Under the pieces are notes generated by a model that searched no databases, was not told where the DNA came from, and saw only the letters and a program-made list of their open reading frames with translations. Shown here in pieces: positions 6,072-29,558 of a stretch of DNA of 64,000 bases; position 1 is the stretch's first letter, and every line of letters begins with the position of its first letter. The position numbers and the translations under genes were made by a program. The DNA is from Dokdonella sp. Its GTDB lineage: Bacteria > Pseudomonadota > Gammaproteobacteria > Xanthomonadales > Rhodanobacteraceae. The stretch spans positions 372,001 through 436,000 of the forward strand of contig JANQAE010000004.1 in the NCBI GenBank assembly GCA_024707225.1, read 5' to 3'.

Positions 6072-7549
6072 CGGCGTGCCTCCAGGGCTGCCCGCGCGAC
6101 CTGACGGTCGTCGAACGGATGGCGCACGCCGCCGATCTCCTGATACGGCTCGTGCCCCTTGCCGGCGATCAGCACGACGTCGCCGCCGCGCGCCTCGCGC
6201 ACCGCCTCGGCGATCGCGCGTGCGCGATCGCGCTGGACCGTGACGCGGCCGGGCGCGACGAAGCCGGCGAGGATGTCGGCGACGATCGTGTCGCCGTCCT
6301 CGCCGCGCGGATTGTCGTCGGTGACCACGACGCGGTCGGCCAGCGACTCGGCGATCGCCGCCATCTGCGGCCGCTTGCCGGCGTCGCGCTCGCCGCCGCA
6401 GCCGAACACGCAGATCAGGTCGCCGGCGCAATGCGCGCGCAGCGTCGTCAGCGCCTGCTCGAGCGCATCGGGCGTGTGCGCGTAGTCCACGACCAGCAGC
6501 GGCACGTCGTCGTGTCCGCCGAGCCGGCTCATGCGGCCCGGCACCGGTTCGAGCACGGCCAGCGCGGCGACGATGTCGTCGAACGCGATGCCGCAGATGC
6601 CGAGACAGGCGACGACCGCGAGCAGGTTGGCGACGTTGAAACCGCCGAGCAGGCGCGTGCGCACCGGTCCTGTGCCCCACGGCGTGTGCAGCTCGAACGC
6701 AAGCCCTTCGACGCTGGCCGCGATCGCGTCGGCGCGCACGTCGGCACGCGGATCGTCCAGCCCGTAGGTCACGCGCTGCAGCGATTCGGGCAGCCGCGCG
6801 GCCAGTGCGGCGCCGAACGCATCGTCGAGGTTCAGCACGGCGGCGGCGAGACCCGGGAAACGAAACAGGCCGGCCTTGGCGGCACCGTAGGCGGCCATGC
6901 TGCCGTGATAGTCGAGATGGTCGCGCGTGAGGTTCGTGAACACCGCGACGCGGAACGCCACCGCGTTGACGCGGCCCTGCACCAGCGCATGCGAGGAGAC
7001 CTCCATCGCGACGTCGGTCGCGCCGGCGTCGCGGAATTCGGCGAGCAGGCGCTGCACCGCGATCGCATCGGGCGTGGTGTGCTCGCCGGGCGCGATCGCG
7101 CCGTGCAGGCCGGCACCGAGCGTGCCGATCGTCGCGGCGCGGCGGCCCAGATGGGTCAGCGCCTGCGCCAGCAGCTGCACCGTGGAGGTCTTGCCGTTGG
7201 TGCCGGTGACGCCGATCACGCGCAAGGCCTGCGAGGGTTCGCCGTAGTAGCGCGACGCGATCGCGCCGAGCCGGTCGCGCAGGTTCTCGATGCCGATCAG
7301 CGGCACCGTGCCCGGCAGGGTCGGCGTGTCGGACGGCAGCGGCAGTTCGGCGAGGATCGCCGCGGCGCCGCGCTCCAGCGCCCGCGGCGCGTGCGCCAGG
7401 CCATGCGCGCGCGCGCCGCGCAGCGCGACGAACGCCTCGCCCGGCGCGATGCGGCGCGAATCCTGAGCGAGGCCGCCGATCACGACGTCGCCGGCGTCGA
7501 CGACGCCGGCGAGCAGGTCCTTCAACGATGCGCGATACGTGCGGCTCAT
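6068..7549 (-). CDS. murE: UDP-MurNAc-L-Ala-D-Glu:meso-diaminopimelate ligase MurE
   Basis: MurE adds the third stem residue. The ATP loop is VTGTNGKTSTVQ and the substrate motif is DNPR (in VVTDDNPRGED), which marks meso-diaminopimelate rather than lysine specificity. Also visible are DSRRIAPGEAFVALRG in the N-terminal domain, AMEVSSHALVQGR, and FGCGGERDAGKRP. Length is 493 residues, as expected. The ATG at 7549 overlaps the ftsI stop, and its own stop overlaps the murF ATG. The frame is uninterrupted. Confidence 0.96.
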   Translation of the reverse strand: MSRTYRASLKDLLAGVVDAGDVVIGGLAQDSRRIAPGEAFVALRGARAHGLAHAPRALERGAAAILAELPLPSDTPTLPGTVPLIGIENLRDRLGAIASRYYGEPSQALRVIGVTGTNGKTSTVQLLAQALTHLGRRAATIGTLGAGLHGAIAPGEHTTPDAIAVQRLLAEFRDAGATDVAMEVSSHALVQGRVNAVAFRVAVFTNLTRDHLDYHGSMAAYGAAKAGLFRFPGLAAAVLNLDDAFGAALAARLPESLQRVTYGLDDPRADVRADAIAASVEGLAFELHTPWGTGPVRTRLLGGFNVANLLAVVACLGICGIAFDDIVAALAVLEPVPGRMSRLGGHDDVPLLVVDYAHTPDALEQALTTLRAHCAGDLICVFGCGGERDAGKRPQMAAIAESLADRVVVTDDNPRGEDGDTIVADILAGFVAPGRVTVQRDRARAIAEAVREARGGDVVLIAGKGHEPYQEIGGVRHPFDDRQVARAALEARR

Positions 7550-16554: not shown

Positions 16555-16876
16555 TGGTGGGCCGTGTAGGGCTCGAACCTACGACCAAGGGATTATGCGT
16601 ACCACTTCGGCTTTCGCCGCCCGTTTCCGGTTCGTGGTCTGGACTCTGTCTTGCCTTTCGGCCTTCCCGTCGAGTCTCTACACGTTCTCCCTCGCGGGAG
16701 CTTCGCTCGGCGTTGGCGTGGCGGCGCTGCCGCGTTAGCGTCCACCGAATTTGAGAAGTTCTACTGCGGGACAGGCCACGCCTATCCCGAGCAACCCGTG
16801 CGGAGCCGACCATGCGCCGAGGCGTTTAGGTCGCTCCTGCCAAGTCCCCTGCTCTAACCGACTGAGCTAACGGCCC
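16555..16876 (-). tRNA. tRNA with CAT anticodon (Ile2 or elongator Met), split by a group I intron
   Basis: Read on the minus strand, the 5' exon (16876-16843) begins GGGCCGTTAGCTCAG and contains the D arm and the 5' half of the anticodon stem (GGGGA). The 3' exon (16597-16555) begins CATAATCCC and carries the T arm and the encoded CCA. GGGCCGT pairs with ACGGCCC over seven acceptor pairs, GGGGA pairs with TCCCT, and GTAGG with CCTAC. Splicing gives the seven-base loop CTCATAA with anticodon CAT. The body resembles ileX-type tRNA-Ile2 (read by lysidine) more than tRNA-fMet; elongator Met cannot be excluded. The exact 5' splice point is uncertain by one base because T occurs twice. Confidence 0.9.
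16598..16842 (-). ncRNA. group I self-splicing intron (IC3-like) in the tRNA anticodon loop
   Basis: 245 nt, without a homing endonuclease gene. On the minus strand the core contains TCAAATTCGG (plus-strand 16745-16754) and AACGCCGAGC (16705-16714), matching the P3-P4 and P4/P6 core of the Azoarcus tRNA-Ile intron, then GTGTAGAGACT...GACGG. The P7 halves AGACTC (16672-16677) and GAGTCC (16641-16646) pair through GACTC/GAGTC. A P8-like hairpin GCC-GAAA-GGC lies between them, and two GAAA-capped hairpins follow near the 3' end. The intron ends in G immediately before the anticodon, as group I introns must. I could not settle P1 and the internal guide by eye. Confidence 0.9.

Positions 16877-27713: not shown

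Positions 27714-29558
<1,845 letters not shown>

Follow-up and report, generated by a model that had tools for sequence, protein, structure and literature searches.

A predicted group I intron between U33 and C34 of the only tRNA-Ile(CAU) gene found in a Dokdonella genome

In a 64-kb stretch of Dokdonella DNA (the window), a tRNA gene with a CAT anticodon is split by an insert that ends directly before the anticodon. This raises the questions of whether the insert is a splicing group I intron, how it reached this site, and how the cell reads the codon served by a tRNA interrupted in this way. The gene and its parts are as follows:

16555..16876, minus strand: interrupted tRNA-Ile(CAU) (tRNA-Ile2) gene, called by ARAGORN with introns allowed; exons distinct from the genome's own Met-e and Met-i genes
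16843..16876, minus strand: 5' exon, tRNA positions 1-33, 3' end ...GGGGACU(33)
16598..16842, minus strand: predicted group I intron, 245 nt, omega-G at 16598
16555..16597, minus strand: 3' exon, anticodon C34-A35-U36 at 16597..16595, terminal CCA encoded

The interrupted gene, its junction and the intron core

Run without introns, ARAGORN called no tRNA in the 64-kb window. With introns allowed it returned c[16555,16876], anticodon CAT, with a 245-nt intron ('ggact-Intron-cataa'); two further intron calls in the window, with inserts of 1653 and 2631 nt, look spurious. In the exon-joined tRNA-Ile(CAU) the acceptor, D, anticodon and T arms are intact, and the anticodon loop reads CU-CAU-AA. The initial annotation, which had proposed a group I intron within a CAT-anticodon tRNA gene and recommended an intron-aware tRNA finder as a check, had the coordinates exactly right; the gene is on the minus strand, and its acceptor, anticodon and T stems do pair once the 245-nt insert is removed. 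Besides the ARAGORN call, a 94% identical interrupted tRNA-Ile gene is present in a congener (G005) and the helices covary across 18 homologous introns, so the interrupted gene is not a chance feature.

The junction lies between U33 and C34 (the 33/34 site), directly before CAT as first proposed: this cut gives back a 7-nt loop with CAU, leaves G as the terminal intron base and fits the guide, and the ARAGORN ends agree with it. A cut one base further on (U34/A, anticodon UAU) was rejected by reading the sequence, as it would leave C as the last intron base and take the C32-G pair away from P1. The genome has its elongator and initiator Met genes at other places, and their sequences differ from the CAU exons in the window; for this reason we assign the gene to tRNA-Ile2 rather than to Met. 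No homing endonuclease open reading frame is present in the window intron, in agreement with the first reading; its longest stop-free stretches are 76 codons in the sense and 81 codons in the antisense direction.

The core motifs named in the initial annotation (TCAAATTCGG, AACGCCGAGC, GTGTAGAGACT and the P7 pair GACTC/GAGTC) were all found in the insert, whose last base is G. Based on an alignment of 18 related introns with their exon ends, we assigned the following elements:

16802..16837, minus strand: P1-extension hairpin between the 5' splice site and the guide, GGAGC-GACC/GGUC-G-GCUCC; minimum-energy and centroid folds, weaker evidence
16793..16799, minus strand: guide ACGGGUU; P1 pairs G16796.U33, G16795-C32, U16794-A31 and U16793.G30
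16767..16789, minus strand: P2 hairpin, 16789..16785 with 16771..16767; each pair in 12 to 18 of 18 introns, with both-sided changes
16753..16758 and 16668..16663, minus strand: P3, 5' strand CUUCUC and 3' strand GGGAAG; 6 pairs, each in 18 of 18, 3 of them with at least two Watson-Crick types
16743..16748 and 16712..16707, minus strand: P4, 5' strand UCGGUG and 3' strand CGCCGA; 6 pairs, each in 18 of 18
16672..16676 and 16646..16642, minus strand: P7, 5' strand GACUC and 3' strand GAGUC; paired in 18 of 18, with a C-G/G-C swap at the fifth pair

Helices P3, P4, P6a, P7 and P8 are paired in all 18 related introns, and the pairing of these helices as well as of P2 and P9 survives base changes on both sides; one P3 pair, for example, is U-A, G-C or A-U among the aligned introns. 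Pairing is weakest at the first pair of P2, formed in 12 of 18 introns, followed by the second and third pairs of P10 with 13 of 18 each and the first pair of P9.0 with 15 of 18. The P1-extension hairpin, judged only by eye and from one fold, is partly kept in G005. The minimum-energy fold of the precursor has a z of -2.9 and does not contain P3 and P7 together, as expected of pseudoknot-free folding.

The guide GGUU (16796..16793), located directly before P2, matches A31, C32 and U33. P1 is formed in 18 of 18 related introns, each time with a U33.G pair at the 5' splice site, which is what the group I splicing mechanism needs. The base preceding the guide pairs with C34 and the next two are AU in 13 of 18 introns, giving an AUG that pairs with the anticodon CAU (P10). 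The window has ACG at this position (G16797-C34, a C16798 x A35 mismatch, A16799-U36), so the P10 that is complete in 13 of 18 relatives has one mismatch here.

Across the 33/34 introns collected below, the guide base follows exon position 31: in Ile-type introns A31 is matched by a guide U (32 of 33) and in fMet introns G31 by a C (20 of 21), while both Ile-like introns with G31 have a guide C (2 of 2). These counts cover the 56 of 89 introns that have the motif; the other 33 lacked it and were not counted. When only the first 110 nt are considered, 52 of 89 introns have the motif, while shuffled sequences would be expected to give 6.8. Base 31 hardly varies independently of the host type, so the agreement should not be taken as many independent events. 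The window guide, GGU with A31, fits the pattern of tRNA-CAU introns at this site, GG(U/C) matched to exon base 31. Taken together, the group I intron at U33/C34 is real and, judging from its sequence, probably active.

Detection of the intron and recurrence of the site

The initial annotation had held that the lack of a match to the Rfam group I intron model, RF00028, would speak against the intron, and RF00028 indeed gave no match in the window or the whole genome at E values up to 10. This result is uninformative, as the same model misses other clear tRNA introns: at E up to 1, all four tRNA-Leu introns tried from this genome and its relatives as well as the G005 intron, and in a second control the 33/34 intron of Halotalea. 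It does find both congener tRNA-Ile introns tried at the 36/37 site (57.2 and 62.9 bits) and both cyanobacterial fMet introns tried (52.6 and 53.4 bits), and it scores the 33/34 introns of Pirellula and Pseudomonas at 39.3 and 31.7 bits, under the model cut-off. Because of the missed Leu, G005 and Halotalea introns, the silence of RF00028 carries no weight here, and after these Leu, 36/37 and fMet controls we rejected the model as a judge of the window intron. ARAGORN has limits of its own, in that it misplaces the ends of 36/37 introns (giving the anticodon as ccg or ctg), so these ends were set by sequence rules. This gene escapes both RF00028 and ARAGORN run without introns, so genomes may seem to have no tRNA-Ile2.

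The initial annotation placed known tRNA-Ile(CAU) introns after the anticodon and took the 33/34 site to be seemingly a different one. The first part stands for the type known from Azoarcus, whose guide is described as pairing with the isoleucine anticodon triplet CAU (PMC6274277), which places its splice site after the anticodon (36/37). Introns of this type also occur in this family, where a search of 197 genomes found them in at least 39, including two congeners. The window intron resembles it in host tRNA, size and IC3-like core, yet it is not the same intron: the Azoarcus type has its junction after U36 and a guide GUG, and the window intron has neither. The family's 36/37 introns also match RF00028 at 57-63 bits (two tried) and form a clade of their own.

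The second part, that the site is new, was not borne out. We scanned GTDB species contigs for the 3' intron end followed by CATAA, a pattern with no matches in 100 shuffles of the window, and obtained at least 114 matching stretches. ARAGORN reports an interrupted tRNA in 100 of the 114 matches listed, often with shifted ends; by our own boundary rule, 87 of these 114 have introns at U33/C34. The hosts are at least 49 tRNA-fMet genes and at least 38 Ile2-like or other tRNAs, where Ile2-like means only that the gene falls outside our fMet rule (a few, such as L169 and L263, are odd). The introns are found under at least 19 NCBI phylum labels, many of these contigs being metagenome bins that may be mixed. 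All of these numbers are minimum counts for one pattern and not frequencies; 27 of the 114 loci are outside the counts, and at least two of them (L188 and L205) look like chance matches. A 33/34 site unique to the window gene is therefore rejected by the scan. In one contig titled Nanoarchaeota archaeon (L263), possibly through contamination of the bin, a CAU tRNA-like gene is split at U33/C34 by an intron. For archaea, group I introns are reported from rRNA alone (PMC6125680).

Eleven of the 87 introns at U33/C34 among the matches listed are longer than 400 nt. The open frames in eight of these 11 resemble one another and span 149 to 177 codons; another, L152, has the apparent end of such a frame. 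The one frame tested (L159) matches PDB 2OST, which we take to be I-Ssp6803I, the endonuclease of a cyanobacterial fMet intron, at 2.4e-63.

Group I introns of cyanobacterial tRNA-fMet genes were reportedly described by Biniszkiewicz et al. in 1994 and Paquin et al. in 1997. The cyanobacterial genes that we read, among them those of Nostoc and Calothrix, also have the junction U33/C34, with the same kind of guide. The window intron differs from them in its tRNA-Ile2 host, its guide U (not C) for A31, its lack of an endonuclease and its separate branch in the tree. Published accounts describe the cyanobacterial tRNA-fMet introns and, for the Synechocystis one, a 150-codon open reading frame (PMC5733544, PMC8450103). 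The tRNAscan-SE 2.0 paper also states that tRNA-Ile2 genes of Acidovorax and Burkholderia have group I introns, with no position given there (PMC8450103). These are probably the same group, as the Burkholderia, Paraburkholderia and Pseudacidovorax introns that we read are at 33/34 and are kin of the window intron. The present case concerns different bacteria, and the tRNA-Ile2 gene of other genus members is either free of introns or split by a different one. No description of the 33/34 site in tRNA-Ile2 was found in the literature searched by titles and abstract starts, where subscription journals are thinly covered. On its sequence features, the window intron belongs to a known, widespread and poorly annotated group of tRNA-CAU introns at 33/34. 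One source puts the majority of bacterial tRNA introns at 37/38 (PMC4033280). The recurrence of U33/C34 as an intron home in CAU tRNAs corrects the picture of bacterial tRNA introns as lying mostly behind the anticodon.

Relatives and origin of the intron-bearing gene

Ten genomes of the genus were searched with the tRNA-Ile gene of G001 as the query. Two of the ten, the window's own genome (G000) and G005, have the 33/34 intron and were matched through their own exons only; two (G001 and G002) have a 36/37 group I intron; and five (G003, G004, G007, G008 and G009) have a contiguous intron-free tRNA-Ile(CAU) gene, the form that the initial annotation had suggested looking for in related genomes. 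In G006 (85% complete) a short match falls in another tRNA, and this genome was not scored. The genus tRNA-Ile2 locus is anchored by a syntenic neighbour:

27714..29558, minus strand: rpoD, from tblastn mapping of window genes

By tblastn, the tRNA-Ile gene lies downstream of rpoD and in the same direction in G001, G002, G003, G004, G005, G008 and G009, and with the window included it lies downstream in eight of the nine scored genus genomes. In the window the distance is 10.8 kb with extra genes between, and in G007 the 20 kb examined around the tRNA-Ile gene do not include rpoD. More widely, rpoD is in the stretch around 8 of 39 tRNA-Ile 33/34 loci and was not seen in the stretches around the six nearest non-congener loci. 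Present in several groups, the rpoD linkage could offer homology for exchange. We rejected a mobile element beside the gene, as Pfam gave no integrase in the six neighbouring proteins of the window that were searched.

We built a quick tree of 117 introns, in which 48 of 113 inner branches are open and which leaves out 13 introns longer than 330 nt, all but 16 of the 36/37 introns, loci without set boundaries and seven duplicate loci. The window and G005 introns form a pair at 100. They belong to a clade of eight tRNA-Ile 33/34 introns (SH-aLRT 100) together with those of Halotalea, Ottowia, two Pseudacidovorax, a Burkholderiaceae bin and an unplaced Pseudomonadota bin, and this clade is nested in a proteobacterial tRNA-Ile clade of 18 at 99. 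A second tree, with 19 distinct viral introns and no 36/37 introns, recovered the same sets of eight and 18 at 100 and 99. In the first tree the 16 36/37 introns are split off as a clade of their own (100) and the family's Leu introns take other positions; neither tree unites all of the 33/34 introns in one clade. Intron identity to the window is 93% for G005 and 82-87% for the six nearest non-congeners, with Ottowia at 87%.

A core-model search of 197 family genomes gave a match in 62, and an intron of the window type was found in at least two of them, G000 and G005. The latter is a minimum, as the search filters lose weak matches and three loci (L090, L135 and L136) are outside the count. 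The scattered distribution expected in the initial annotation is supported. Given this presence in 2 of 197 sampled family genomes, with the nearest outside kin in Ottowia, Pseudacidovorax and Halotalea, we infer that the intron reached the genus sideways, by horizontal transfer.

The genome also has two tRNA-Leu introns. Its tRNA-Leu(TAA) gene (L031 429-743) and tRNA-Leu(CAA) gene (L099 408-727), both on contig 1 and each the sole one found, have group I introns at 34/35. Like the window intron they have a P3-P9 core and a terminal G; they differ in their site, their guide (GAG, by eye), their P7 (GAGCA/UGCUC) and a longer P8, and the window intron has neither a tRNA-Leu host nor a junction after base 34. 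One could propose that one of these two introns moved into tRNA-Ile by reverse splicing with its guide shifted by one nucleotide, given that both are in the same genome, that the Leu(UAA) intron has a BLAST match at 67% identity over query 123-289 and that the 5' exons are alike (GGGACT). The tree, however, groups the window intron with tRNA-Ile 33/34 introns of other bacteria (100 and 99) and places the Leu introns elsewhere, and over aligned columns the window intron is 87% identical to that of Ottowia versus 78% to the genome's own Leu(UAA). We consider such a move within the genome extremely improbable, and on the tree we rejected the Leu introns as a source.

In two other genomes of the set, we noted unusual inserts. 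The tRNA-Leu(TAA) gene of G095 (L091 1450-2019, the same as L131 582-1151) has a 484-nt insert with two separate core-model matches, possibly two introns in tandem or one inside another. A tRNA gene in G052 (L039 46-762), Gln according to ARAGORN and Arg(TCT)-like by eye, has an anticodon-loop insert of ~620 nt, probably at 34/35 and long enough for a gene.

The exons provide further evidence on the route of arrival. Their identity to the window exons is 65/77 in G001 and 62/76 in G002, so the gene body is not the usual one of the genus. It is 70/75 in Halotalea and L207, and 72/77 in L118, which is from another family of the same order and has a 36/37 intron; with L118 as close as Halotalea and L207, the donor of the intron-bearing gene is uncertain. 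Because the exons as well as the intron differ from the genus type, an intron-bearing gene most likely took the place of the native tRNA-Ile2 gene at the rpoD-linked locus. The intron might instead have arrived alone by DNA homing from an endonuclease-bearing relative, with the exon differences due only to co-conversion and drift. The frames of 149 to 177 codons in eight of the 11 long introns at this site, including the L159 match to 2OST, would fit such a route. But the exon differences, which amount to 12 of 77 relative to G001, extend into both the acceptor and the T stem, which is far for co-conversion of flanks, and there is no room for an endonuclease gene in the window intron or in the 242-nt intron of G005; we regard homing of the intron alone as possible, although unlikely. 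Overall, we consider it very likely that the insert is a group I (IC3-like) self-splicing intron of the U33/C34 tRNA-CAU group, in the only tRNA-Ile2 gene found, and that it was acquired sideways. Without an endonuclease it would probably persist as a neutral passenger that can be lost only if the loss is precise.

We also looked for this type of gene in phages and plasmids. Forty-seven IMG/VR contigs (L277-L323) match the 33/34 junction pattern, and 43 of these 47 have tRNA(CAU) genes with introns at U33/C34, of which 19 are distinct among those up to 330 nt. One of the contigs (L286, near 7379-7429) also has a phage-type DNA polymerase and a UvsX-like recombinase. In the second tree, none of the 19 distinct viral introns falls in the window's clade of eight. 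Twenty of 50,697 GenBank phage records match the window gene, 19 of them in the 3' half of the tRNA and one at the end of the intron, and none over more than 80% of the query. With no viral intron joining the window's clade after these checks of viral contigs, GenBank phages and the tree, we rejected a phage as the direct donor.

In four phage sequences (L324, L325, L326 and L327), ARAGORN reports other interrupted tRNAs. At 34/35, tRNA-Leu(TAA) is split by 278, 205 and 700 nt in Agrobacterium phage Atu_ph07 (MF403008; L327 846-1207) and two very large uncultured phages, and the fourth has two interrupted tRNAs. The Atu_ph07 record has no tRNA annotated at its intron-bearing tRNA-Leu locus. 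A 2014 review states that the phage introns known to date sit in protein genes (PMC3984707); the viral tRNA(CAU) introns and the Atu_ph07 tRNA-Leu intron are unlike that statement.

Of 72,556 records of named plasmids, 1,266 match the window gene, and identity lies at 60-80% in 1,260 of the best places. The whole gene was not found on a plasmid among the matches listed, and the best 20 of the 1,266 cover query positions 109-279, from the intron core to its last base. These are probably group I introns in plasmids, to judge by the stretch that matches. In 19 of the 20 listed, for example NC_004464.2 61887-62070, there is no annotated feature at the match.

The sole tRNA-Ile2 gene and AUA decoding

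Of the tRNA genes found in the genome (assembly 99.23% complete), 43 are uninterrupted and include neither Ile(CAT) nor Ile(TAT). Three are interrupted, namely Ile(CAT), Leu(TAA) and Leu(CAA), each the sole copy found for its anticodon. A search of the assembly at E 0.01 with a congener gene as the query matched only the two exons of the window gene, and we therefore rejected a hidden second tRNA-Ile(CAU) copy. The suggestion in the initial annotation that this is the only copy of a rare tRNA thus agrees with the assembly, in which no other Ile(CAU) and no Ile(UAU) gene was found. TilS is present (159 bits). With no other AUA reader found and TilS present, the reading of AUA should depend on the predicted splicing of tRNA-Ile2, based on gene content.

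One may ask whether the gene is instead decaying, with a precursor that is not spliced and AUA read by another tRNA. The P10 mismatch in the window would fit this, as would the rarity of AUA (4 of 179 Ile codons in eight window open reading frames). Both the core and the exons are nevertheless conserved in G005, the acceptor, anticodon and T-stem pairs are intact, no other AUA reader was found and TilS has been kept, so we give a decaying gene hardly any credence.

If the intron is active, the precursor would fold, exogenous guanosine bound at P7 would attack after U33, and U33 would then attack after omega-G, joining the exons to the loop CU-CAU-AA. TilS would make lysidine at C34 of the joined loop, and the tRNA would then read AUA. 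It can also be imagined that tRNA-Ile2 is exchanged as a cassette of exons and intron at the rpoD-linked locus, with phage tRNA genes as one pool, and that splicing gates lysidine formation and AUA decoding. The first half of this idea draws on the three states in one genus, the exons unlike the genus type and the viral tRNA(CAU) introns at the same site. As to gating, the AUG that precedes the guide in most of the clade would mask the anticodon until splicing is done, since P10 uses CAU, and this is weakened in the window by its own P10 mismatch (A35 x C). We consider the combined idea quite doubtful.

Within one genus, the same gene is found with no intron, with a 36/37 intron or with a 33/34 intron. 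This makes the genus usable for testing how a ribozyme is gained, lost or exchanged in a tRNA-Ile2 gene that is apparently indispensable.
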